Source: Curvibacter sp. GWA2_64_110 (GTDB taxonomy: Bacteria; Pseudomonadota; Gammaproteobacteria; Burkholderiales; Burkholderiaceae_C). From it: 64,000 nucleotides of DNA. Below, piece by piece: positions 7,546-19,395 of the stretch (position 1 is the stretch's first letter; every line of letters starts with the position of its first letter). The notes under the pieces are model-generated. The model worked only from the letters and a program-made list of their open reading frames with translations, was not told where the DNA came from and did not search any database. The stretch spans positions 62,001 to 126,000 of the forward strand of contig MGPC01000005.1 of the NCBI GenBank assembly GCA_001797315.1. The letters run 5' to 3'. A program made the position numbers and the translations under genes.

Positions 7546-8001
7546 TTACTCATATGGATTTCCATACCCGAGCGATTCCATCAACAGCACTTCCAGCGCC
7601 TCCATCTCCAGCGCATCCTTCTCGTTGGTCTCGTGCTCATAGCCCTGCGCGTGCAGGGTGCCGTGCACCAGCAGGTGGGCGTAGTGCTCTTCCAGCGTCT
7701 TGCCCTGTTCCTTCGCCTCGCGTTCCACCACCGGGGCGCACAGCACCAGGTCGGCCAGCACCACCGGTTCTTGCGCGTAGTAGAAGGTCAGCACATTGGT
7801 GGCGTAGTCCTTGTGGCGGTAGCTGCGGTTGAGCGCCTGGCCTTCCTTGGCGTCGACGATGCGCACGGTGAGCTCGGCGTCGCGTTGCAGGGCGTGGCGG
7901 ATCCAGCGCGTCACCTTGGCGCGCGTCAGCACGGCGCGGTGGCGGGTCATGCCTTGGTCGCTGCCGAACTGCAGCGAGAGTGAGAGTGAATTCATGGTCA
8001 T
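7546..8001 (-). CDS. ybeY: Endoribonuclease YbeY (rRNA maturation factor)
   Basis: A 151-residue zinc-dependent single-strand endoribonuclease needed for 16S rRNA 3' end maturation and 70S ribosome quality control. The metal motif is intact: [12 protein letters not shown] (H-x3-H-x5-H) near residue 112-123, with the conserved RxLN-like patch [18 protein letters not shown] before it. Two in-frame ATGs (8001 and 7995) are possible starts; the first lies inside a dispersed 56-bp repeat, the second just outside it. The gene follows phoH on the same strand, the usual order in proteobacteria, though in many relatives corC follows and here it does not. Confidence 0.95.
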
Positions 8002-8053
8002 TTTGGCCTCTGGCCCTTGTAAAATATGCGCGAGCAGCTATTCTTTTGATAGC
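7998..8053 (-). repeat. 56-bp comamonad-type dispersed repeat, copy 1 (phoH end / ybeY start)
   Basis: In gene sense the element starts GCTATCAAAAGAATAGC, contains GCGCATATTTTACAAGGGCC, and ends GAGGCCAAAATGA. The first half has the palindromic core CTAT...ATAG. It supplies the last codons of phoH (Leu-Ser-Lys-Glu) and its TAG stop, and its last bases include the first possible ATG of ybeY. Other copies of exactly 56 bp lie at 23394-23449, 28000-28055 and 39338-39393, all on the minus strand. Confidence 0.75.
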
Positions 8054-8988
8054 GTTCTGCTGGCGCGCGGCTTGTCGTAGGCGTCGACGATGCGGGCCAC
8101 CAGCGGGTGGCGCACCACGTCGGCGCTGGTGAAGCGGCAGATGGCGATGCCCTGGACGCGCTTGAGCACGCGCTCGGCGTCGATCAGGCCACTGAGTTGC
8201 GTCTTGGGCAGGTCGATCTGGCTGACGTCGCCCGTGACCACGGCGCGCGAGCCGAAGCCGATGCGGGTGAGGAACATCTTCATCTGCTCGGGTGTGGTGT
8301 TCTGCGCCTCGTCCAGGATGACGAAGGCGTTGTTCAGCGTGCGCCCGCGCATGAAGGCCAGCGGCGCGATCTCCAGCGCGTTGCGCTCGAAGGCTTTCTG
8401 CACCTTCTCGAAGCCCATCAGGTCGTAGAGCGCGTCGTACAGCGGGCGCAGGTAGGGGTCGATCTTCTGCGTCAGGTCGCCGGGCAGAAAGCCCAGGCGC
8501 TCGCCGGCTTCCACCGCCGGGCGCGTGAGCACGATGCGCTGCACCACGCTGCGCTCCAGCGCATCGACCGCGCTGGCCACCGCCAGGTAGGTCTTGCCGG
8601 TGCCGGCCGGGCCGATGCCGAAGGTGATGTCGTGGTTGGCAATGCTGTCCAGGTAATGCGCCTGGTTGGGCGTGCGGGCGCGCAGCTCGTGGCGGCGCGT
8701 CTGCAGCACCTCGCCGTCCTCGGCCAGCGGCATGGAACTGTCGCCGGCCAGCATCAGCTGCACGGTGGCGGTGTCGATCGGGCGCGCCGCCATCTCGTAC
8801 AACGCCTGCAGCACTTCCATGCCGCGTTTGGCCTTGGCCTTGGGGCCGTCGACCTTGAACTGCTCGTGGCGGTGGGCGATCTTGACCTGCAGCGCGGTCT
8901 CGATGGTGCGCAGGTGCTCGTCCATGGGGCCGCACAGATGGGCCAGGCGGGTGTTGTTGGGCGGCGAGAAGAGGTGGCGGAGAATCAA
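8038..8988 (-). CDS. phoH: PhoH-like ATPase
   Basis: A 316-residue protein of the PhoH/YbeZ family, a P-loop ATPase with RNA-related function that partners YbeY. The Walker A motif [11 protein letters not shown] and the helicase-like Walker B segment [16 protein letters not shown] are present, as is the family end DRRI-like segment [10 protein letters not shown]. The longer open frame upstream overlaps the divergent ruvA gene; homologues start at the [21 protein letters not shown] block, so the TTG at 8988 with an AGGA ribosome site 12 bases before it is chosen. The C-terminal four residues and stop come from a dispersed repeat. Confidence 0.92.
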
Positions 8989-9069: not shown

Positions 9070-9642
9070 ATGATCGGTCGGCTCACAGGCATTCTTCTCG
9101 AAAAAAATCCACCCGAGGTGCTGGTGGACTGCCATGGCGTGGGCTACGAAGTCCAGGTCTCCATGAGCACCTTCTACAACCTGCCCAACCTGGGCGAGAA
9201 GGTCAGCCTGCTGACGCATTTTGTCGTACGCGAGGACGCGCAACTGCTCTACGGCTTCGGCACACCCACCGAACGTGAAGCGTTCCGCCAGCTCATCAAG
9301 ATTTCAGGCGTCGGCCCGCGCACCGCGCTGGCGGTGCTGTCGGGCATGAGCGTGGCCGAGTTGGCGCAGGCGGTGAGCCTGCAGGAAGCCGGCCGCCTGG
9401 TCAAGGTGCCGGGCATCGGCAAGAAGACCGCCGAGCGCCTGCTGCTGGAACTCAAGGGCAAGCTGGGGGCCGACATCGGTGCCGTCGGCGGCCCGGTCAA
9501 CGACGCGCAGGCCGACATATTGCAGGCGCTGCTGGCGCTGGGCTACAGCGACAAGGAAGCCGCTGCCGCGCTCAAGGCGCTGCCGGCCGACGTGGGCGTG
9601 AGCGAGGGCATCAAGCTCGCGCTCAAGGCGCTGGCCAGGTAA
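9070..9642 (+). CDS. ruvA: Holliday junction branch migration protein RuvA
   Basis: A 190-residue protein that binds four-way DNA junctions and loads the RuvB motor. It starts [21 protein letters not shown] as expected, with the N-terminal OB fold, the two helix-hairpin-helix motifs ([20 protein letters not shown] and [19 protein letters not shown]) and the C-terminal RuvB-contacting domain ([22 protein letters not shown]). Length is standard. ruvC is not nearby and ruvB lies about 9 kb downstream at 18337, so the ruvAB operon is split by the catabolic cluster and other genes. Confidence 0.97.
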
Positions 9643-9652
9643 AGGCGGCCCC

Positions 9653-10045
9653 ATGGCCTGGCTGGCTCGGCTCAAGCAGCGCGCCAAGGCGCTCAAGGGT
9701 GAGACCTATGTGCTGTACTTGGCGGCGCGCCATCCGGCCACGCCCTGGTACGCCAAGCTGCTGGTGGCCGTCATCGTGGCCTATGCCTTCAGCCCGGTCG
9801 ACCTGATCCCGGACTTCGTGCCGGTGCTGGGTTATCTGGACGACCTGGTGCTGATCCCGCTGGGCATCGCGCTGGCCATCAAGCTGGTGCCGCAGGCGGT
9901 GCTGGACGAGTGCCACGCCAAGGTACAGGCAGCCAGGCAAGGCGGTAAGCCGAGCAGCCGCGCGGCAGCGGTCGTCATCGTGCTGATCTGGCTGGGGATT
10001 GCCGCGTTGGGCGTGGCCTGGGGCTGGCGGGTTTTCGCCGGCTAG
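9653..10045 (+). CDS. YkvA family membrane protein (DUF1232)
   Basis: A 130-residue inner-membrane protein starting 10 bases after ruvA. It shows the DUF1232 signature YAFSPVDLIPDFVPVLGYLDD between two membrane segments (about residues 38-55 and 60-80), plus a third hydrophobic segment at the C-terminus (VVIVLIWLGIAALGVAWGW). The role of YkvA proteins is not known. The close spacing suggests it is translated from the ruvA message. Confidence 0.88.
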   Translation: MAWLARLKQRAKALKGETYVLYLAARHPATPWYAKLLVAVIVAYAFSPVDLIPDFVPVLGYLDDLVLIPLGIALAIKLVPQAVLDECHAKVQAARQGGKPSSRAAAVVIVLIWLGIAALGVAWGWRVFAG

Positions 10046-10052
10046 GCCGGCG
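10036..10052. terminator. Hairpin between convergent ykvA and carbonic anhydrase genes
   Basis: CGCCGGC at 10036-10042 pairs with GCCGGCG at 10046-10052 around a 3-base loop that is the TAG stop codon of the YkvA gene. It lies between two convergent genes and could end transcription from either side, but neither side has a run of T after the stem, so the call is weak. Confidence 0.35.
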
Positions 10053-10061
10053 CCCTTCGGT

Positions 10062-11201
10062 TTACTGCGCGTCGCGGATTGGGCGGCTGTTGACCGGCTG
10101 CACCGGGCGCGCATTGTTGGGGTAGAGCTGGCGGAAGAGCTTGAGCTGTTCCGCGCTGACCGTGGTCGGTTGCTTGAGCACCAGCCACAGCACGCCTTCG
10201 GTGCAGGGCGGTGTGGTGAGCGAGCCGAGGAACTGGTAGTAGCGCTGGTCTTTGGGAAGCAACTCGTTCAGGTCCAGCAGACCGGCCGGCATGCGCACGG
10301 TGTCGCCGGCATCCAGCGGCATGTAGGTCCAGACCTTGTTGATCAGGCCGTTGGCCGCACCCGGGTCGAGCAGCACCGCCACCACAGCCAACTGGCCTTC
10401 GATATTGCGATGCACCAGGTGCACCACCATCGAATACACCTTGTGGTTGATGTGCTCTTCCGACGGGTGGTGGAAGTGGAACTGCAGCAGCTTGTAGTTG
10501 GAGCCTCGCACGTTGATGCTGTTGTCGCCCACCACATCGACCTGGATGGTGTGGCCGTTGTTCACCACCGTGCCGCTGCTGGGCTGGTAGCTGAACTGGA
10601 TGGCCTCGGCCGGGCCCTGCAGCGTGTTCGATTCCTGGATGTGAATCGGCGACTGGCGCTTGCCCAGGGCGCAGGTCTTGTATTCCGGTTTCAGCTGGCC
10701 CCAGGCGTCGGGGCCGCCTTCGCCTTCGTAGGCCCAGTGCACATCGTGGCCGTGGCTGTCTTTATGGGGCGTTGCGCTCGGTGCCGCGTGGCCGACCAGG
10801 GCAGCGGTGCGGGCGCGCTGGTAGGACGCGGCGGGTGCCGGCTTGCTACCCTGCACTGCCGGTGCGGGCGGATCGGCGGGTTCCGCTTGGACTGTTTTTC
10901 TGGCGCCAACCGGCCGGGTCGGTGCCACCGGTTTGGCCGGTTTCGGGATCGAGGTGACGCCGCTGCTCTTGGCCTCCGTGCCGTTGACGATCACGGTCAG
11001 CTGTTTCTGCGACAGGTTGCCCTTGGCTGCCTCGCGCAATTGCTCGGCCAGGTCCTTGCCGAGGGCTTCGCCGGCTGTCGGTTTGGCGGCGGGCTCGGCG
11101 GCAGATAGCGGCAGTGCTGTCAGCAGGCAGGCCAAGCCCAGGCTTGCTACGGCGGTGGCGCGGCGGGACATCCAGGGGGTGGGCTGCAGATGATCAGACA
11201 T
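10062..11201 (-). CDS. Secreted alpha-type carbonic anhydrase
   Basis: A 379-residue exported enzyme that interconverts CO2 and bicarbonate in the periplasm. After a signal peptide (about residues 1-35) comes a long Pro/Ala/Lys-rich linker to about residue 145, then the alpha-carbonic anhydrase domain starting HWAYEGEGGPDAWGQL. The zinc histidines are visible in QFHFHHPSEE and the following MVVHLVH, and the substrate-pocket segment SLTTPPCTEGVLWLVL is intact. The N-terminal extension of over 100 residues is longer than in typical bacterial enzymes and may be a spacer or an interaction region. It has its own position downstream of the catabolic operon, separated by a strong hairpin. Confidence 0.92.
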   Translation of the reverse strand: MSDHLQPTPWMSRRATAVASLGLACLLTALPLSAAEPAAKPTAGEALGKDLAEQLREAAKGNLSQKQLTVIVNGTEAKSSGVTSIPKPAKPVAPTRPVGARKTVQAEPADPPAPAVQGSKPAPAASYQRARTAALVGHAAPSATPHKDSHGHDVHWAYEGEGGPDAWGQLKPEYKTCALGKRQSPIHIQESNTLQGPAEAIQFSYQPSSGTVVNNGHTIQVDVVGDNSINVRGSNYKLLQFHFHHPSEEHINHKVYSMVVHLVHRNIEGQLAVVAVLLDPGAANGLINKVWTYMPLDAGDTVRMPAGLLDLNELLPKDQRYYQFLGSLTTPPCTEGVLWLVLKQPTTVSAEQLKLFRQLYPNNARPVQPVNSRPIRDAQ

Positions 11202-11222
11202 GGTGCCTATGGTATCGGCAAC

Positions 11223-11249
11223 CGGGCGCCGGGCTTGAGCCGGCGCCCG
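11223..11249 (-). terminator. Strong GC hairpin downstream of the catabolic operon
   Basis: CGGGCGCCGG (11223-11232) and CCGGCGCCCG (11240-11249) form a perfect 10-bp stem with a 7-base loop, 29 bases after the end of the FAH-family gene and before the carbonic anhydrase start on the same strand. The stem would fold in the operon message. No T tract follows, so it could be a Rho-assisted terminator or an mRNA-end stabiliser. Confidence 0.5.
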
Positions 11250-11278
11250 CCGCTCCGGGGCGGTCCGTCCGTCGCGGC

Positions 11279-12292
11279 TCAGGCCGTGCGCTGGCGCACC
11301 ACCTGCTCGATGCTGCCGAAGATGCTGGCGCCCTGGGTATCGCGCATGTCAATGCGCACACGGTCGCCGAAGCGCATGAAGGGCGTCAGCGGCTGACCGG
11401 TCTCGATGGTTTCGTACATGCGCACTTCGGCGATGCAGCAGTAGCCCACGCCGCCGTTGGCGATGCTCGATCCGTGCAGGTCGCCCTGCTTGTTCGACAC
11501 CGTGCCCGAGCCGATGATGGAGCCGGCTTCGAGGTCGCGCGTCTTGGCCGCATGGGCGATGAGCTGGTCGAAGCCGAAGGTCATGTCCACGCCGGCGTTG
11601 GGGCGCCCGAAGGGCTGGCCGTTGAGCTCGACCTCCAGCGGCAGGTGCAGCCGGGCATCGTGCCAGGCCGGGCCCAGCTCGTCCGGGGTGACGGCCACCG
11701 GGCTGAAGGCCGAGGCCGGTTTGGACTGGAAGAAGCCGAAGCCCTTGGCCAGCTCGGCCGGGATCAGGTTGCGCAGACTGACGTCGTTGACCAGCATCAC
11801 CAGGCGGATGGCCTGCGCCGCGGCCTCGGGCCGGGTGCCCATGGGCACATCGCCGGTGACCACCGCCACCTCGGCTTCGAGGTCGATGCCCCAGGCCTCG
11901 TCGCCGGCCCACACCGGGTCGCGCGGGCCGACGAAGCTGTCGGAGCCGCCCTGGTACATCAGCGGGTCGGTGTGGAACTCCGGCGGCAGGGTGGCACCGC
12001 GCGCCTTGCGCACCAGTTCCACGTGGTTGATGTAGGCCGAGCCGTCGGCCCACTGGTAGGCGCGCGGCAGCGGGCTGTGGCAGGCCGCGGGGTCGAAGGG
12101 CTGGCCGGCCTCGGCCTGGGCGTTGAGCTGCTGGTAGGCGGCCTGCAGTGCGGGCAGGCAGCGCTCCCAGTCGTCGAGCGCGTGCTGCAGGGTGGCGGCG
12201 ATCTGCGGCACCGGCAGGCAGCGGCGCAGGTCGCGGCTGACGACCACCAGCGTGCCGTCGCGGCCGCCCTGTTTCAGGCTGGCGAGTTTCAT
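11279..12292 (-). CDS. Fumarylacetoacetate hydrolase family protein
   Basis: A 337-residue cytoplasmic hydrolase of the FAH superfamily. The catalytic-domain features are visible: metal-binding acids in GIDLEAEVAVVTGD, the NDVSLRNLIPAELAKGFGFFQSKP block, and the C-terminal GSGTVSNKQG and GDRVRIDM segments. FAH proteins cleave the C-C bond of acylpyruvates (fumarylacetoacetate, fumarylpyruvate) to fumarate or maleate plus a keto acid. It is the last gene of a seven-gene operon that also encodes a GST-type maleylacetoacetate/maleylpyruvate isomerase, so it probably performs the final step of an aromatic ring-cleavage route. Its start overlaps the preceding DUF2783 stop by 4 bases. Confidence 0.9.
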   Translation of the reverse strand: MKLASLKQGGRDGTLVVVSRDLRRCLPVPQIAATLQHALDDWERCLPALQAAYQQLNAQAEAGQPFDPAACHSPLPRAYQWADGSAYINHVELVRKARGATLPPEFHTDPLMYQGGSDSFVGPRDPVWAGDEAWGIDLEAEVAVVTGDVPMGTRPEAAAQAIRLVMLVNDVSLRNLIPAELAKGFGFFQSKPASAFSPVAVTPDELGPAWHDARLHLPLEVELNGQPFGRPNAGVDMTFGFDQLIAHAAKTRDLEAGSIIGSGTVSNKQGDLHGSSIANGGVGYCCIAEVRMYETIETGQPLTPFMRFGDRVRIDMRDTQGASIFGSIEQVVRQRTA

Positions 12293-12507
12293 GTGTTGTC
12301 TCCTGGGGCGTTCGCCAGCGTGTTGTCGCGGGCCAGGGCGATGGCTTCGCTCAGGACCTCGCGGTCGCCGATGTGGTTGGCCAGGATGAGGGCCAGCTTG
12401 GCAATGGCCATGTCGGCCTGCGCCTCGCTCATGTCGCGCTGGCTGTTGATCAGCTCGGCATAGAACAGGTCCTGGTCGGGGATGTTGGGTGTGCGGATGA
12501 GTTGCAT
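12289..12507 (-). CDS. DUF2783 small protein
   Basis: A 72-residue protein starting MQLIRTPNIPDQDLFYAEL and containing LALILANHIGDREVLSEAI, the pattern of DUF2783. These small proteins occur almost only beside PHBH/MhpA-type FAD monooxygenases; their role is unknown, perhaps as an accessory subunit. The ATG at 12507 lies 11 bases after the monooxygenase stop and the stop overlaps the FAH start. In the genome it is easily missed because the frame is open far upstream as an antisense-like shadow of the monooxygenase. Confidence 0.8.
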   Translation of the reverse strand: MQLIRTPNIPDQDLFYAELINSQRDMSEAQADMAIAKLALILANHIGDREVLSEAIALARDNTLANAPGDNT

Positions 12508-12518
12508 GGCAGCGTGCT

Positions 12519-14123
12519 TCAGTTCAGTTTCAAGGCGCGCGACAGTGCGGCCTGCGCCTGCGCCGCGTCGAAGCGGCGCCAGCGCGCGGCCACATGCTGG
12601 TCGGGGCGGATCAGGTAGACCGTGCCGGGCTGGCCGTCGTAGCGCTGCGTGAGGATGCCTTGCGCGTCCTCGATGTCGCGGCCGACCTGCAGCACCGGGG
12701 CGGTGATGCCTTGAACCGTCACCGGCTCGGCCGGGCCGAAGCTCAGCAGAACGAAGCCCTGGCCGAGCTGGTTGAGCAGCCAGGCGTCCTGGCCGTTCTT
12801 GCGGATCGGTGCGTCGGCACAGTTGGTGCCCGGGTACATGGTGCCGGCGAAGGCCGCGCTGTCGGGCGTGTTGAGCGACGACTGCAGGTAGGGCGTGGGC
12901 GTGGACAGCCGGCCGCTGTTGACCAGCGGCCGTGCGAAGGGCTCGGTGCGCGCCAGTTCCAGCACCGCGTTGCGCAGGCGCAGCGAGCTGCGGCTCTTCG
13001 GGGTGATGAAGTCGGTGGCGCGGGTGGAGTGGCCGATGTTGTCGTCGGCCGCGTAGGCGCGTTCCTCGTGGAAGGTGTCCAGCAGTGCCAGCGGCGCGAC
13101 GCCGTCCATCACTGCCTTGAGCTTCCAGCCGAGGTTGTCGCAGTCCTGCACGCCGGTGTTGGCGCCGCGGGCGCCGAAGGGCGAGACCTGGTGCGCGGCG
13201 TCGCCGACGAAGAGCACGCGGCCGTGGCGGAACTGGTCGATGCGGCGGCAGGCGAACTGGTAGACCGAGACCCACTCCAGCTCGAACTCGACGTCGGGCC
13301 CGAGCATGGCCTGGATGCGCGGAATCACGTTCTCCGGCTTCTTCTCTTCCGTCGGGTCGGCGTCCCAGCCGAGCTGGAAGTCGATGCGCCAGACGTTGTC
13401 GCACTGCTTGTGCAGCAGCACGCTCTGGTTGCGGTGGAAGGGTGGGTCGAACCAGAACCAGCGCTCGGTCGGGAAGTCGGCCTTCATCACCACGTCGGCG
13501 ATCAGGAAGCGGTCCTGAAAGAACTGGCCGGTGAAGTCGGCGCCGATCATGCGGCGTGTGTCGCTGTTGGCGCCGTCGGCGGCGACCACCCAGTCGGCCT
13601 CCAGCTTGAAGATGCCGTCCGGCGTTTCCACTGTCAGCACCGCGTGGTCGTCGCGGTTGTCGATCGCCAGTACCTTGTGCTTCCAGCGCAGGTCCACCAG
13701 CGGCGATGCGTCGCAGGCCTGCACCAGCCGCTCCTCCAGGTGGTACTGCTGGTAGTTGATCATGGCCGGCATCTTGTGGTGCGCTTCGGGCAGCAGGTCG
13801 AACTGGTAGGCCAGTTCGTCGCGGAAGAACACCTTGCCCACCTTCCACTGCACGCCCTTGGCGGCGAACTCCTCGCCCACACCCAGGCGGTCCCAGATCT
13901 CCAGCGGGCGCTTGGCGTAGCAGACCGCGCGCGAGCCGATGCTCACGGTGTTGTTGTCGTCCAGGATGACGGTGGGGATGCCGCGGCCGGCGAAGTCGAG
14001 CGCCTGCGTCAGGCCGATCGGGCCGGCGCCGATCACCACCGCCGGGTGGCGGCGAACCTGGCCGCTGCGCTGCTCCTCGCTCTGGCGGTAGGCGTATTCC
14101 GGGTAGGTGTAGGTCTGGGACAT
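12519..14123 (-). CDS. FAD-dependent aromatic monooxygenase (PHBH/MhpA-like)
   Basis: A 534-residue flavoprotein hydroxylase. It has the N-terminal dinucleotide motif VVIGAGPIGLTQA (residues about 29-41), the DG motif VVAADGANSDTRRM and the FAD-ribityl motif LFVGDAAHQVSPFGARGANTG, followed by a C-terminal thioredoxin-like domain as in 3-(3-hydroxyphenyl)propionate and phenol hydroxylases. Family members use NAD(P)H and O2 to hydroxylate a phenolic ring. With downstream ring-cleavage, isomerase and hydrolase-type genes, it most likely converts a hydroxy-aromatic acid to a para-diol such as a gentisate- or homogentisate-like compound; the substrate cannot be read from the sequence. The start is 2 bases from the VOC stop. 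Confidence 0.88.
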   Translation of the reverse strand: MSQTYTYPEYAYRQSEEQRSGQVRRHPAVVIGAGPIGLTQALDFAGRGIPTVILDDNNTVSIGSRAVCYAKRPLEIWDRLGVGEEFAAKGVQWKVGKVFFRDELAYQFDLLPEAHHKMPAMINYQQYHLEERLVQACDASPLVDLRWKHKVLAIDNRDDHAVLTVETPDGIFKLEADWVVAADGANSDTRRMIGADFTGQFFQDRFLIADVVMKADFPTERWFWFDPPFHRNQSVLLHKQCDNVWRIDFQLGWDADPTEEKKPENVIPRIQAMLGPDVEFELEWVSVYQFACRRIDQFRHGRVLFVGDAAHQVSPFGARGANTGVQDCDNLGWKLKAVMDGVAPLALLDTFHEERAYAADDNIGHSTRATDFITPKSRSSLRLRNAVLELARTEPFARPLVNSGRLSTPTPYLQSSLNTPDSAAFAGTMYPGTNCADAPIRKNGQDAWLLNQLGQGFVLLSFGPAEPVTVQGITAPVLQVGRDIEDAQGILTQRYDGQPGTVYLIRPDQHVAARWRRFDAAQAQAALSRALKLN

Positions 14124-14124
14124 G

Positions 14125-14673
14125 TCAGGCGCCCTTGGTTTGCTGGAATTCCTTGTCGTGCATCCAGGCGGCGTGCTTGGGCGCGCGCTTGGTGCGGCTC
14201 CACTCCTCCAGCATGGCCCACTTCACCTCGTCGAGCTGGCGGTACATCTCGGGCGTGCCGACATCGGCCGCCAGTTCGACGCGGTGGCCGTTGGGGTCGA
14301 AGAAGTAGATGCTCTTGAAGATGGTGTGGTCGGTCAGGCCGATCACCGGGATGCCCGCGGCCTCCAGCCGTGCCTTGGTGGCTTCCAGCGTGGCGAGGCT
14401 GTCGACCTTGAAGGCGATGTGCTGCACCCAGTCCGGCGTGTTGGTGTCGCGCCCCATGGCCGGGGTGTTGGGCAATTCGAAGAAGGCCAGGATGTTGCCG
14501 CCGCCCGCATCGAGAAAGAGGTGCATGTAGGGGTCGGGGGCCTTGGTGCTGGGCACCTGGTCTTCGGCGATGGCCAGTACGAAGTCCATGTTCAGGTGCT
14601 TGACGTACCACTCCACCGTTTCCTTGGCGTCCTTGCAGCGGTAGGCGACATGGTGAATCCGTTCGATCTTCAT
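14125..14673 (-). CDS. VOC-family protein, probable ring-cleavage dioxygenase
   Basis: A 182-residue protein with two beta-alpha-beta-beta-beta modules of the vicinal oxygen chelate fold (glyoxalase/extradiol dioxygenase). Candidate metal ligands are His8 in IHHVAYRC, His85 in WVQHIAFKV and Glu133 in NGHRVELA, the 2-His-1-Glu triad of extradiol enzymes; Glu65 in LAFFELP is a fourth candidate. Position between a ring hydroxylase and genes for isomerase and FAH hydrolase makes it the only candidate ring-cleaving enzyme in the operon, since no cupin gentisate or HmgA-type homogentisate dioxygenase is encoded here. A glyoxalase-like or epimerase role remains possible. ATG at 14673 with an AGGAGAG ribosome site. 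Confidence 0.82.
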   Translation of the reverse strand: MKIERIHHVAYRCKDAKETVEWYVKHLNMDFVLAIAEDQVPSTKAPDPYMHLFLDAGGGNILAFFELPNTPAMGRDTNTPDWVQHIAFKVDSLATLEATKARLEAAGIPVIGLTDHTIFKSIYFFDPNGHRVELAADVGTPEMYRQLDEVKWAMLEEWSRTKRAPKHAAWMHDKEFQQTKGA

Positions 14674-14691
14674 GGTGCTCTCCTTCGGACC

Positions 14692-15666
14692 TCAGTCCAG
14701 TTTGATGTTGGCTTCGCGGATGACCTTGGCCCAGCGGGCGCGCTCGGCGCGGGCGTAGTCGGTCATCTGCTGCGGCGTGCCCGGCATCGGCTCCAGCGCC
14801 ATGGTCTGCAGCCGGGCCTTGACCGGGGTCGCGTTCAGCGCGGCCACCAGCGCCTTGTTCAGGCGCGCGACCACGTCGGCCGGCGTGCCGACCGGCACCA
14901 CCAGACCCTGCCAGGCATGGGCTTCCACCTCCTTCAGGCCCTGTTCCTCGAAGGTGGGGATGTCGGCCATGGTCGGCACACGCTGCTTGCTGGCCACGCC
15001 GATGGCGCGCAGGCGGCCGTTGGCGATGTACTGCAGCACGCTGGCGCTGTCCATGAAGCCGATCGGGATCTGGCCGCCGACCAGGTCCTGCACGGCGGGT
15101 GCGGCGCCGCGGTAGGGCACGTGCTGCAGCTTCAGGCCCGCCTTCTGGCGGAACAGTTCGCCCGTCAGGTGGTGCGGGCTGCCGGTGCCGGCCGAGGCGT
15201 AGGGGATGGGGTCCGTTTTCGTCTTGGCCCAGGCCAGGAACTCCTTCAGGTTCCTGGCCGGCACGTTCGGGCCGACGACCAGCAGCATGGGAAAGCGCGC
15301 CAGCAGGCCCACCATCTGGAAGTCGCCGTCCGGGTTGTAGGGCAGCTTGGAAAACAGCGAGGGGTTGGCCGCCAGCGTGGCGAAGTCGGCCGTCAGCATG
15401 ATGTTGCCGTAGTCCTTCGACTTGGCCACGTAGTCGGCGGCGATGTTGGTGGCCGCGCCCGGCTTGTTGTTGATGATGATGGCGCGGCTGCCCAGCTCGC
15501 CGCTCATGGCGACGGCCACGCTGCGGGCCACGTAGTCGGAGCCGCCGCCGGCGGCATAGCCGACCACCCATTCGATGGGCTTGTCGGGCTGGGCCTGGGC
15601 GGCCAGCGGCAGCAGGGCGGCAGCGGCGGCCTGCAGCATCAGTCGGCGGATGGAAGTGATCTTCAT
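14692..15666 (-). CDS. Bug/TctC-family tripartite tricarboxylate transporter receptor
   Basis: A 324-residue exported receptor. The ATG at 15666, preceded by AAGGAGAC, gives a signal peptide ending AAQAQ and then PDKPIEWVVGYAAGGGSD, the Bug ligand-loop start; the longer frame upstream has no ribosome site. Further family segments are PYRGAAPAVQDLVGGQIPIG and PTFEEQGLK. In this operon the likely ligand is the aromatic acid substrate of the pathway. As with the other Bug receptor, no TctAB membrane partner is encoded nearby. Confidence 0.92.
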   Translation of the reverse strand: MKITSIRRLMLQAAAAALLPLAAQAQPDKPIEWVVGYAAGGGSDYVARSVAVAMSGELGSRAIIINNKPGAATNIAADYVAKSKDYGNIMLTADFATLAANPSLFSKLPYNPDGDFQMVGLLARFPMLLVVGPNVPARNLKEFLAWAKTKTDPIPYASAGTGSPHHLTGELFRQKAGLKLQHVPYRGAAPAVQDLVGGQIPIGFMDSASVLQYIANGRLRAIGVASKQRVPTMADIPTFEEQGLKEVEAHAWQGLVVPVGTPADVVARLNKALVAALNATPVKARLQTMALEPMPGTPQQMTDYARAERARWAKVIREANIKLD

Positions 15667-15713
15667 GTATGTCTCCTTGTAGGTGATATGTGTCGGGTGC
15701 GGGTTGACGAGGA

Positions 15714-16670
15714 TCAGCCCTCGAGGGATTCCCACATCTGGCGGTCGCGTTCGGCGGTCCAGATGCGCGGATCGGGGTATTGCGTGGCCTCGTCGTAGGC
15801 GCGGGTCACGTCAAAGGGCATGCAGTGGTCGAAGATGACCCACTGGCCATACTTCGGTTTGAGCTGCGCGTAGGTTTCGCGGTAGACGGCCTTCAGGTCG
15901 CGGCCGGCGGCGGCGCCGGCCTTCACGCTGGCATAGAGGTCGCTGACGAAGTCGCGCGTCATCGCCAGGCCCTGGGCCACCTGGGCCTCGCTGCGCAGGG
16001 CGGCGCCGCGCCCGGGCACCAGGGCCTGCGGCTTGAGGGCGGCGATGTTCTGCAGCGTCTGCGGCCAGGCCTGGAAGTAGGCGTCGCCGGCATAGGGCGT
16101 GGCGTCGAACTCGACCAGGTCGCCCGACAGCAGCACCTTCTCCTGCGGCAACCAGACCACGGTGTCGCCCTTGGTGTGGCCGCGGCCGAGCTGCAGCAAC
16201 TGCACTTCCAGCTGGCCCAGCCACAGCGTCATCTTGCCGGTGAAGGTCAGGGTGGGCCAGGTCAGACCTTGCGGCACCGTCTCGACGTTGCGGAACAGGC
16301 GCGGGAAGCGGCCGATCTCGCTCGCCTTGTCGGCCTCGCCGCGCTCGACGATCAGGTCGTAGGTGTCCTGGCTGGCGATGATCTGCTGCGGCTGGTAGGC
16401 GCTGGCGCCCAGCACCCGCACCGCGTGGTAGTGCGTCAGCACCACGTACTTGATGGGCTTGTCCGTCACGGTGCGGATGTGGCGGATCACGTCCGCCGCC
16501 ATCGCCGGCGTGGCCTGGGTGTCGGCCACCAGCACGGCATCGTCGCCGATGATGATGCCGGTGTTGGGGTCGCCCTCGGCAGTGTAGGCCCAGGCATGTT
16601 CCGACAGCTGGACGAAGCTGACTTGCTTCTCTTCCAGGTCGGCCTGGCTGGCAAAGGTCTTGGTGTTCAT
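15714..16670 (-). CDS. Metallo-beta-lactamase-fold protein lacking site-2 ligands (paralogue 1)
   Basis: A 318-residue cytoplasmic protein with the metallo-beta-lactamase fold. The usual HxHxDH motif reads His80-Tyr-His82-Ala-Val84-Arg85, so the Asp and His of metal site 2 are replaced; the third site-1 histidine (His165 in GRGHTKGD) and the bridging Asp184 (SGDLVE) are kept, while the last site-2 histidine (usually PGHG) is Arg221 in PGRG. It therefore probably binds one metal or acts through a different chemistry. The C-terminus has a distinctive FDHCMPFDVTRAYDE and PRIWTAERDRQMWESL tail. A paralogue with the same substitutions lies at 44724-45713. In the operon it may act on a thioester or lactone intermediate (inference). 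Confidence 0.85.
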   Translation of the reverse strand: MNTKTFASQADLEEKQVSFVQLSEHAWAYTAEGDPNTGIIIGDDAVLVADTQATPAMAADVIRHIRTVTDKPIKYVVLTHYHAVRVLGASAYQPQQIIASQDTYDLIVERGEADKASEIGRFPRLFRNVETVPQGLTWPTLTFTGKMTLWLGQLEVQLLQLGRGHTKGDTVVWLPQEKVLLSGDLVEFDATPYAGDAYFQAWPQTLQNIAALKPQALVPGRGAALRSEAQVAQGLAMTRDFVSDLYASVKAGAAAGRDLKAVYRETYAQLKPKYGQWVIFDHCMPFDVTRAYDEATQYPDPRIWTAERDRQMWESLEG

Positions 16671-16707
16671 GGGGTGATGTGCTCCGGGGTCTGCGGGTTC
16701 AAAAGGG

Positions 16708-17358
16708 TTATTCGGCGTCCGGCTGGTTCGCCGGCAGCGCGGCGACGAAGGCCGGGAGGGCTTCGCAGGCGGCGGCGATGCGCTGGACGGTCGGCATGGC
16801 GTCGAGGGAACAGTGGTAGCGGCGCGCGTTGAAGACCTGAGGCAGCAGGCAGCAGTCGGCCAGGCCGGGCGTGTCGCCGTGGCAGAAGCGGCCGGTCTGC
16901 GGGTGCTCGGCCAGCAACTGCTCCACCGCGCTCAGGCCGAGCTGGACCCAGTGGCGATACCAGGTGTCGACCTCGTCCTGCGTGTGCCCGAGCGTGCGCT
17001 TGAGGTACTGCAGCACGCGCAGGTTGTTGACCGGATGGATGTCGCAGGCGATCGCCTGGGCGATGGCGCGCACGCGGGCACGCTCGGCCGGCGTGGCCGG
17101 CAGCAGCGCCGGCTGCGGGTGGGTTTCGTCCAGGTACTCGATGATGGCCAGCGACTGGGTCAGCACCAGCGGGCTGTCCTGCAGCACCGGCACCACGCCC
17201 AGGGGGTTGAGCGCGCGGTAGGCGGCGTGGTGCTGTTCGCCGCCGTCGCGCAGCAGGTGCACCGGCACGGCGTCGAAGGGCAGGCCCTTGAGGTTCAAGG
17301 CGATGCGCACGCGGAAGGCGGCGGAGCTGCGGAAATAGGTGTGGAGTTTCATGGCCAT
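16708..17358 (-). CDS. Maleylacetoacetate/maleylpyruvate isomerase-type glutathione S-transferase
   Basis: A 216-residue zeta-class GST. The catalytic SSxxxR motif is visible near the N-terminus (YFRSSAAFRVRIALN), followed by the glutathione-binding segment VPVLQDSPLVLTQSLAIIEYLDE and the family-typical helix ACDIHPVNNLRVLQYLK. Zeta-class enzymes use glutathione to isomerise the cis double bond of maleylacetoacetate or maleylpyruvate before FAH-type hydrolysis, matching the FAH gene at the far end of this operon. It is the first gene, transcribed divergently from a LysR regulator. An ATG six bases downstream (17352, giving MKLHTYF) is an equally good start. I give no maiA symbol because the substrate is unproven. 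Confidence 0.87.
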   Translation of the reverse strand: MAMKLHTYFRSSAAFRVRIALNLKGLPFDAVPVHLLRDGGEQHHAAYRALNPLGVVPVLQDSPLVLTQSLAIIEYLDETHPQPALLPATPAERARVRAIAQAIACDIHPVNNLRVLQYLKRTLGHTQDEVDTWYRHWVQLGLSAVEQLLAEHPQTGRFCHGDTPGLADCCLLPQVFNARRYHCSLDAMPTVQRIAAACEALPAFVAALPANQPDAE

Positions 17359-17415
17359 CCGGGCTGGGATGGCGCATTACAGCCTCGCATCATTTATCAT
17401 GCAAACGGTTTTTAC

Positions 17416-17425
17416 AGATATATCT
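17416..17425. promoter_or_regulatory. Palindrome AGATATATCT in the GST/LysR divergent region
   Basis: A perfect 10-bp AT palindrome in the 80-bp gap between the catabolic operon and its divergent LysR gene, inside the wider TTTACAGATATATCTATC context. It is the most obvious candidate core of the LysR binding site; the gap is otherwise the only AT-rich stretch in the neighbourhood. Evidence is position and symmetry only. Confidence 0.45.
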
Positions 17426-17438
17426 ATCGGAAAACGTG

Positions 17439-18329
17439 ATGAATGTGACCCTGAAGCAGCTGCGGGCCTTCGTGGCGGTGGCGCGCACCGGCAGCTTCAC
17501 GCTGGCGGCCGAGCGGCTGTTCCTCACGCAGTCGGCCCTGAGCGGGCAGATCAAGGAGCTGGAGCAGGCGCTGGGCCTGCGGCTGTTCGACCGCAGCACG
17601 CGCCGGCTCAAGCTGTCCGAGGTGGGGCAGGGCCTCCACCCCCTGGTGGAAAAGATCCTGCACGACCTGGACGACGTGCTGGCCAAGGTGGACGACCTCA
17701 AGGCGCTCAAGGGCGGCGCGGTCAGCATCGCCGCGCCGCAGCTGCTGGCTTCCACGCTGCTGCCGGAGGTGATTGCCGCCTACAGCCGCACGCACCCGCA
17801 GGTGCGCATCAAGCTCACCGACTGCGTGGTGGAGGGCGTGATCCCGCGTGTTTTCTCGGGCGAGGTGGACATCGGCGTCGGGCCTGAGCGCGATGCCAAC
17901 TCCGCCATCACCGCGACCCAGCTGTTCGAGATGCCCTTCATGGCGGTGTTCCCGCCCGGCCATGCGCTGGAAAAGCGCAAGACCCTGCGCTGGAGCGACC
18001 TGGAACGCTACCCGGTGATCTCGCTGCAGGGCCAGTTCACCGAACGGCTGATGGGCGACCTCTACGGCAGTGCGCGCATCCAGGGCCTGCAGCCGACCAA
18101 CGAGGTGGCCTTCATGTCCACCGCGCTGTCGATGGTCAACGAAGGGCTGGGCATCACCATCTGCATGCCGTATGCGGCGGCCCAGGTCCGGCTCTATGGC
18201 CTGGTGATGCGGCCGCTGACCAACCCGGTGGTCCGCCGCAGGTTCTACCTCTACACCCGCACCGGCCACACCCTGTCGCCGGCGGCGCAGAGCTTCCTGG
18301 ACTTCCTGCTGCACTATCAGCGGGTATAG
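17439..18329 (+). CDS. LysR-family regulator of the catabolic operon
   Basis: A 296-residue LysR protein with the N-terminal winged helix ([36 protein letters not shown] region) and the effector-binding domain from about residue 88. It faces away from the GST-to-FAH operon across an 80-bp shared region, so it very probably controls that operon in response to the aromatic substrate or an intermediate. The ATG at 17439 is preferred to the GTG three bases earlier. It ends 7 bases before the ruvB start, so some ruvB message may come from this promoter. Confidence 0.9.
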
Positions 18330-18336
18330 TCTTCCT

Positions 18337-19395
18337 GTGAGCATCCAGACCGACGATTTCGCCCCCTCTTCCGCCAACCGCGTGGTCTCGGCCGCGCCAA
18401 CGTCGCCCGGCGAGGAGGCGATCGAGCGCGCGCTGCGGCCCAAGCTGCTCGACGAGTACGTGGGCCAGGCCAAGGTGCGCGAGCAACTGGAGATCTTCAT
18501 CGGTGCGGCCAAGAAGCGCGAGGAAGCGCTGGACCACGTGCTGCTGTTCGGCCCGCCCGGCCTGGGCAAGACCACGCTGTCGCACATCATTGCGCACGAG
18601 CTGGGCGTGAACCTGCGCCAGACCAGCGGTCCGGTGCTGGAAAAACCCAAGGACCTGGCGGCGCTCTTGACCAACCTCGAGAAGAACGACGTGCTCTTCA
18701 TCGACGAGATCCATCGCCTGTCGCCGGTGGTGGAGGAAATCCTCTACCCGGCGCTGGAGGACTACCAGATCGACATCATGATCGGCGAAGGACCGGCGGC
18801 GCGCTCCATCAAGCTCGACCTGCAGCCCTTCACGCTGGTGGGCGCCACCACCCGCGCCGGCATGCTGACCAACCCGCTGCGCGACCGCTTCGGCATCGTC
18901 GCGCGGCTGGAGTTCTATTCCGCCGAAGAGCTGGGCCGCATCGTCACGCGCAGCGCCGGCCTGTTGGCTGCGCCGATGGACGAGGAGGGCGGCTTCGAGA
19001 TCGCGCGCCGCTCGCGCGGCACGCCGCGCATTGCCAACCGCCTGCTACGCCGTGTGCGCGATTACGCCGAGGTCAAGGGCAGCGGCCGCATCACCCGGGA
19101 TATCGCGCAGAAGGCACTCGCCATGCTCGACGTCGATCCGCAGGGTTTCGACCTGATGGACCGCAAACTGCTTGAAGCGGTCATTCACCGCTTCGACGGC
19201 GGCCCGGTCGGGCTCGACAACATCGCGGCCAGCATCGGCGAAGAGCGCGACACCATCGAGGACGTGATCGAACCCTACCTGATCCAGCAAGGCTTCCTGC
19301 AGCGCACGCCGCGCGGGCGCATCGCCACGCTGGCGGCCTACCGCCATCTGGGCGTGACACCGCCCAAGACCGAGGGCGGCCTGTTCGAGGGCTGA
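18337..19395 (+). CDS. ruvB: Holliday junction helicase motor RuvB
   Basis: A 352-residue AAA+ ATPase that drives branch migration with RuvA. Visible are the N-terminal region [20 protein letters not shown], Walker [11 protein letters not shown], Walker [10 protein letters not shown], sensor 1 [10 protein letters not shown] and the arginine-containing DRFGIV segment, plus the C-terminal winged helix ending [14 protein letters not shown]. The start is a GTG. It stands apart from ruvA (9070) and ends with a dispersed repeat immediately after its stop. Confidence 0.97.

Follow-up and report, generated by a model that had tools for sequence, protein, structure and literature searches.

The 64,000-nucleotide window analysed here, from contig MGPC01000005.1 (positions 62,001 to 126,000) of Curvibacter sp. 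GWA2_64_110, contains at 11279-17358 seven tightly packed minus-strand genes, from which a LysR gene diverges. The genes for the FAH-family hydrolase and the DUF2783 protein overlap by 4 bp, and the remaining intergenic gaps measure 1-47 bp. A sequence-only reading had described a tight seven-gene operon with a divergent LysR gene, and both the open reading frame coordinates and the matches to Pfam and NCBIfam profiles, by which the window proteins were assigned to families, bear this out. The evidence points to a homogentisate pathway in which a small VOC protein would open the ring in place of the cupin HmgA. The features of the locus are the following (lengths in amino acids, aa).

16708..17358, minus strand: GST of the maleylacetoacetate isomerase (MaiA/HmgC) type, 216 aa (TIGR01262, 301.1 bits against a cut-off of 171.05)
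15714..16670, minus strand: metallo-beta-lactamase (MBL)-fold protein, 318 aa, with one metal site apparently lost (HYHAVR; PF00753, Lactamase_B)
14692..15666, minus strand: Bug/TctC periplasmic receptor, 324 aa (PF03401, 205.5 bits)
14125..14673, minus strand: proposed VOC-fold homogentisate 1,2-dioxygenase, 182 aa (PF00903, Glyoxalase; 9u42 as top sequence and fold match; genome distribution)
12519..14123, minus strand: MhaA-like flavin adenine dinucleotide (FAD) monooxygenase, 534 aa, proposed homogentisate-forming hydroxylase (FAD_binding_3; NF006002, 829.9 bits against 416)
12289..12507, minus strand: DUF2783 protein, 72 aa, proposed coupling protein in the MhaB position (PF10932, 77.8 bits; translation)
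11279..12292, minus strand: FAH-family hydrolase, 337 aa, proposed fumarylacetoacetate hydrolase (PF01557, FAA_hydrolase, and PF18288, FAA_hydro_N_2; 3lzk match)
17439..18329, plus strand: divergent LysR regulator (ATG at 17439; GTG at 17436 in the family search; PF00126 and PF03466)
17392..17406, minus strand: conserved block GTTTGCATGATAAAT, a candidate LysR site between the LysR and GST genes (aligned across seven divergent LysR regions, the window's included)

The FAH-family hydrolase belongs to the short FAH type and scored 22.6 bits against TIGR01266, the model of canonical fumarylacetoacetase, whose cut-off is 375.3.

The VOC protein matches a structure titled homogentisate dioxygenase

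The closest solved structure to the VOC protein is 9u42 (64% identity; TM 0.83/0.89; sequence E 5e-76), a VOC-fold chain of 182 aa released on 2025-07-23 under the PDB title "Homogentisate 1,2-Dioxygenase from Acinetobacter". It was the top match both by sequence and by Foldseek with an AlphaFold2 model of the VOC protein (mean pLDDT 83.9), and it shares the key residues in the alignment. That a VOC protein bears this title runs counter to the earlier premise that such routes always use a cupin dioxygenase. Residues H7, H8, H51, H85, H116, Y123 and E133 of the VOC protein are invariant in 23 of 23 aligned rows, the window's included; among them stands the His-His-Glu triad (H8, H85 and E133) that had been picked out from the sequence. 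In the sequence alignment, a catechol 2,3-dioxygenase has His, His, Tyr and Glu at the positions of H85, H116, Y123 and E133, which would be residues of the metal site together with a second-sphere His and Tyr. No NCBIfam model was reached over its cut-off, and annotated plasmid records label homologues "VOC family protein".

VOC and HmgA across genomes

The host genome (G000) encodes 4-hydroxyphenylpyruvate dioxygenase (HPPD), itself a VOC-fold enzyme, on contig C24. Cupin HmgA (TIGR01015) had no match in this genome at E 0.001, and canonical fumarylacetoacetase (TIGR01266) none over cut-off, the best reaching 21 bits. Of the two cupin dioxygenases that the sequence-only reading had named as possible counter-evidence if encoded elsewhere, the homogentisate type was not found in the genome, and the gentisate type was. 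Gentisate 1,2-dioxygenase is absent from the operon, its matches lying instead at C9 (over cut-off) and C36 (below cut-off), and the C36 gene adjoins FAH-type hydrolase, GST and transporter genes, as judged by eye from translations. A gentisate operon (gentisate dioxygenase, GST isomerase and FAH-type hydrolase) works in the same way, by cleaving a para-diol, isomerising the product and then hydrolysing it. Gentisate was nevertheless set aside as the substrate, being unlikely because such genes occur at C9 and C36, outside the window operon, the latter with their own FAH-type hydrolase and GST.

VOC and HmgA mostly substitute for each other in HPPD-positive genomes. VOC matches of at most 48% identity were not counted as orthologs (the lowest counted was 68% in a sample of the order and 62% in a sample of the phylum); HmgA counts take in sub-threshold matches as well as one truncated at the end of a contig (G052), and HPPD counts only matches over cut-off. 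The order sample of 200 genomes held a VOC ortholog (at least 68% identity) in 27, and its 52 HPPD-positive genomes were divided into 17 with VOC only, 26 with HmgA only, five with both and four with neither. VOC (at least 62% identity) was present in 38 of the 349 genomes of the phylum sample, where the 142 HPPD-positive genomes comprised 23 with VOC only, 101 with HmgA only, 12 with both and six with neither. For the union of 185 HPPD-positive genomes the corresponding numbers were 39, 122, 17 and seven (Fisher p 1.3e-19, a value that overstates the case because the counted genomes are related). HmgA-only genomes also occur in at least 8 of the 19 families, and in at least 3 genera, that hold a VOC-only genome; these are lower bounds, since 41 of the 122 HmgA-only genomes were entered in the comparison. 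In the seven HPPD-positive genomes where both an HmgA match and a VOC ortholog are missing (G049, G093, G133, G137, G322, G349 and G414), a further solution may exist or HPPD may serve another end.

Exchange of the two enzymes in equivalent operon slots

Gene neighbourhoods were compared at 106 loci, with weak Bug, LysR, GST and VOC matches left out of the counts. Eighty of these loci were the best 80 of 590 related stretches, and thus closest kin rather than a fair sample; the other 26 were further VOC loci. Among the best 80, the loci nearest by VOC were mostly from Burkholderiales. HPPD and VOC genes lie no more than 249 bp apart in at least 22 pairs from at least 21 genomes, 19 of 21 without an HmgA match, the adjacency counts being lower bounds because coordinates were entered for 42 of the 64 VOC genomes.

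The order HPPD-VOC-FAH-GST (L052, L054, L055 and L056) is paralleled by HPPD-HmgA-FAH-GST in L215, and by HPPD, a sequence-divergent HmgA, FAH and GST in L163, L165 and L180; L164 is alike, with GST upstream. Likewise, the window set has its HmgA counterpart in L217, which reads MBL-monooxygenase-DUF2783-HmgA-FAH-GST. VOC-FAH-GST sets with a divergent LysR gene occur in Duganella and Pseudoduganella (L144 and L146), and on a conjugative plasmid of Enterobacter (L205, NZ_CP074161.1) transposase genes enclose a VOC-MFS-FAH-MaiA cassette that has a LysR gene. A monooxygenase of at least 50% identity to that of the window was found near VOC at 49 of the 80 and 10 of the 26 loci, and any of HPPD, HmgA, FAH, canonical FAH or GST at 40 of 80 and 17 of 26.

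In Acinetobacter baumannii VB958, which carries a homologue, the genes run fahA-maiA-VOC-IclR and hppD lies on the opposite strand; the window VOC gene differs from this context in its MhaAB-like hydroxylase, Bug and MBL neighbours. Strain AB4353 is described as having no hmgA and, between hmgC and hmgR, a gene that encodes a type I ring-cleaving dioxygenase domain (PMC7646211), which by its position would be the same gene as the VB958 VOC gene.

It is likely that a VOC-fold homogentisate dioxygenase has repeatedly replaced the cupin HmgA in equivalent slots across Pseudomonadota, that tyrosine is then broken down by two successive VOC-fold dioxygenases (HPPD, followed by the VOC protein), and that the same enzyme also serves MhaAB-type operons; as its annotation goes no further than "VOC family protein", the species concerned are read as lacking the step.

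Three side observations concern these loci. The HmgA homologue after HPPD in L163, L164, L165 and L180 is divergent (24% identity), and two genera mix divergent HmgA and VOC after HPPD (G013 with G061 and G105; G021 with G068, G112, G151 and G188). An IncP plasmid of Acidovorax sp. T1 (L202, NZ_CP021650.1) carries at 7577-8410 an MBL gene and a VOC gene (88% identity), where the monooxygenase match spans only residues 1-269 of 534. The hmgA reference coordinates quoted in PMC11945678 (633 bp, overlapping by 14 bp an hmgB of 1308 bp) agree in gene size and overlap with maiA and fahA of L203 (4045-5971), and that article may therefore call maiA by the name hmgA.

The hydroxylase pair and the MBL protein

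The monooxygenase had been called PHBH-type, an assignment that did not hold: it scored 221-224 bits with MhpA-like models versus 74 bits with the 4-hydroxybenzoate 3-monooxygenase model. MhaAB of Pseudomonas putida U, a 566-aa flavoprotein with a 60-aa coupling protein, converts 3-hydroxyphenylacetate to homogentisate, and homologues in Burkholderia xenovorans LB400 (560 and 60 aa) adjoin hmgA1B1C1 (PMC3053370). The window pair (534 and 72 aa) has an MhaAB-like order and similar sizes and stands with homogentisate genes; by this published description, the FAD monooxygenase and the DUF2783 protein resemble MhaAB, a 3-hydroxyphenylacetate 6-hydroxylase. The LB400 region likewise unites flavoprotein, small partner, ring-cleaving enzyme, FAH and MaiA, whereas the window has VOC for the cupin HmgA, a short FAA_hydro_N_2-type FAH that is not TIGR01266, and additional MBL and Bug genes. 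Homologues of the monooxygenase also lie near HmgA in L170, L175, L178, L181 and L217, with DUF2783 detected by tblastn in all but L178, where a 66-aa open reading frame occupies its position. This link is not general, as only one of 14 further HmgA regions (L217) has a monooxygenase homologue. A search of the open-access literature for DUF2783 found nothing relevant.

The MBL protein was correctly recognised as a variant: HYHAVR replaces HxHxDH in every one of the 25 aligned rows, that of the window among them, and H80, H82, H165, D184, R85 and R221 are invariant in the same rows. By the usual roles of these residues, HYHAVR and R221 would remove the second metal site, and neither HxHxDH nor that site, as expected of a dinuclear hydrolase of this fold, was found in any of the 25 rows. 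Its closest structure is 8d2z from Burkholderia cenocepacia (60% identity), whose title gives no function, followed in the fold search with the predicted structure by chlorothalonil dehalogenase (25% identity). The MBL gene is present in 29 loci of the neighbourhood set, 28 of them with the monooxygenase (the exception is L057); of the HPPD-VOC loci only L137 has it, where the HPPD match is weak and on the other strand. This co-occurrence ties it to the hydroxylase step, and the idea that it adds an extra hydrolytic step to the route is not sustained.

Proposed pathway and competing explanations

The VOC protein is most likely the ring-cleaving enzyme because of the title of 9u42, the failure to find HmgA in the host genome, the way the two enzymes alternate between genomes and the equivalent operon slots. 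The GST and the FAH-family hydrolase fit maleylacetoacetate isomerase and fumarylacetoacetate hydrolase, and hence the diol is most likely homogentisate. The interpretation reached from sequence alone therefore stands in part: its VOC dioxygenase step is retained, with the substrate narrowed to homogentisate, and its cupin-only textbook route and MBL hydrolysis are not. In the proposed pathway, the Bug receptor, a probable aromatic acid uptake protein, would help to import a hydroxyphenylacetate, and the monooxygenase with DUF2783 would hydroxylate the substrate, most likely 3-hydroxyphenylacetate at C-6, to homogentisate. The VOC protein, as a His-His-Glu metal dioxygenase, would open the ring to maleylacetoacetate, which the GST would isomerise to fumarylacetoacetate and the FAH-family hydrolase would split into fumarate and acetoacetate. 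Tyrosine-derived homogentisate, formed by the HPPD encoded elsewhere in the genome, could enter at the VOC step, and LysR would act from the divergent region. What the analysis itself establishes is the gene content, the families, the match in fold, the distribution and the exchange between operons; all the reactions, the metal, the substrates of the monooxygenase and the receptor, and the regulation are deduced from these. The probability of this pathway as a whole is put at roughly 0.8.

Several observations weigh against it. The host genome is a draft (3.4 Mb, 41 contigs, 95.56% complete). The 9u42 structure was solved with Zn and its molecule is named "Glyoxalase" in the entry, and a search of the open-access literature for a paper describing it found none. 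E66 of the VOC protein is likewise invariant in the 23 rows and may, we assume, correspond to the fourth ligand of glyoxalase I, so that the assignment of the metal site is tentative. The authors of PMC7646211 judged the AB4353 gene with the ring-cleaving domain probably to be without dioxygenase activity. Sixteen of the 106 loci (10 of 80 and six of 26) have no HPPD, HmgA, FAH, GST or monooxygenase of at least 50% identity nearby, some of their contigs being short. An HmgA match is present in 17 of the 56 genomes positive for both VOC and HPPD, and the two genes are both present at eleven loci, with VOC and HmgA recorded in L079, L088, L100, L105, L110, L114, L115, L117 and L148 (nine of the 80), plus L194 and L201. 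HmgA and VOC are on opposite strands in L117, and monooxygenase-DUF2783-VOC-HmgA lie in a row in L201. Such co-occurrence suggests that in some species VOC is redundant, active under other conditions or directed at a related diol. Lastly, VOC proteins with an HPPD context group together on a tree of 129 VOC rows (8 changes versus a shuffled mean of 21.6), so that some specialisation by context is possible.

The alternative that survives best, tentative though it is, leaves the rest of the pathway unchanged and has the monooxygenase form homogentisate from 4-hydroxyphenylacetate by 1-hydroxylation or from 2-hydroxyphenylacetate by 5-hydroxylation. A flavoprotein with a small partner beside homogentisate genes is, however, the layout reported for mhaAB (PMC3053370), and 2-hydroxyphenylacetate is handled by a P450 in Cupriavidus pinatubonensis (PMC8449657).

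Another reading, an unlikely one, has the monooxygenase supply the VOC protein with a different para-diol, some 2,5-dihydroxyphenyl acid distinct from homogentisate; cleavage of homogentisate would then be at most a side activity, and the lower enzymes would process a substituted analogue. The eleven loci with HmgA and the clustered HPPD context would suit this, as would the wide variation of the monooxygenases that accompany VOC (36-86% identity to that of the window). It is opposed by the adjacency of VOC and HPPD in the 19 genomes without an HmgA match, and by VOC-FAH-GST sets with no monooxygenase found nearby. Nor do HPPD- and monooxygenase-linked VOC proteins form two separate clades: starred branches of the tree force at least three changes of the HPPD label, which is thus not one clade, and at least six of the monooxygenase label (26 changes versus a shuffled mean of 43.3).

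More doubtful still is a VOC protein that is no dioxygenase at all and has an accessory part in the homogentisate pathway, as a glutathione-linked or isomerase-type enzyme. The Foldseek ranks below 9u42, mainly glyoxalases and fosfomycin-resistance proteins, and the invariant E66 speak for it. It would, however, leave 39 of the 185 HPPD-positive genomes without a homogentisate dioxygenase found by the searches made, and the Foldseek matches also include L-DOPA dioxygenase, another small VOC dioxygenase (ranks 26-33 and 48).

The weakest candidate, and the initial idea, was that the VOC protein is a homologue of FdeC or IfcB and the operon cleaves a flavonoid-like A-ring after 8-hydroxylation; the fde and ifc clusters do combine an FAD monooxygenase with a small glyoxalase-type dioxygenase acting after it on the flavonoid A-ring (PMC11069340), but this explanation is very improbable, having been overtaken by the MaiA and FAH genes of the window set, the HPPD neighbours and the naming of 9u42 for homogentisate (FdeC being known by description, with its sequence not compared), and the same genome has a separate VOC paralogue with its own monooxygenase. 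This second pair (VOC, 48% identity; monooxygenase, 44% identity) lies at 8443-10787 of L059 (G000:C18) and is possibly fde/ifc-like.

Regulation and surroundings

LysR genes 48-68% identical to that of the window diverge from VOC or HPPD-VOC operons in six loci, and a GTTTGnATGATAAAT-like block is common to the divergent regions of seven LysR genes, that of the window among them. The block pattern has a single match in the window, which is no independent test since it was built from the same alignment. Scans of 11150-17500 for promoter-like and terminator-like sites found 0 and 2, no more than in shuffled sequence. Within 9070-19395 the operon lies between what we take, from translations, to be ruvA and ruvB, and is flanked by a carbonic-anhydrase-like gene.

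Implications for homogentisate breakdown

The enzyme type is already known by name from one structure title, that of 9u42, and the form of the operon is a variant of a known pathway. Neither the exchange of VOC and HmgA nor the association with an MhaAB-like pair came up in the searches of an open-access library that lacks most subscription papers. Cleavage of homogentisate holds a central place in the breakdown of tyrosine and phenylalanine, and pyomelanin arises when this step is lost (PMC7646211). If the VOC protein is indeed the sole dioxygenase in 39 of the 185 HPPD-positive genomes, or about one in five, many genomes read as lacking the step would be complete, and papers that search these species for hmgA may single out a wrong gene or dismiss the correct one as inactive. 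The two enzymes would then clearly exemplify non-homologous replacement at corresponding operon positions.

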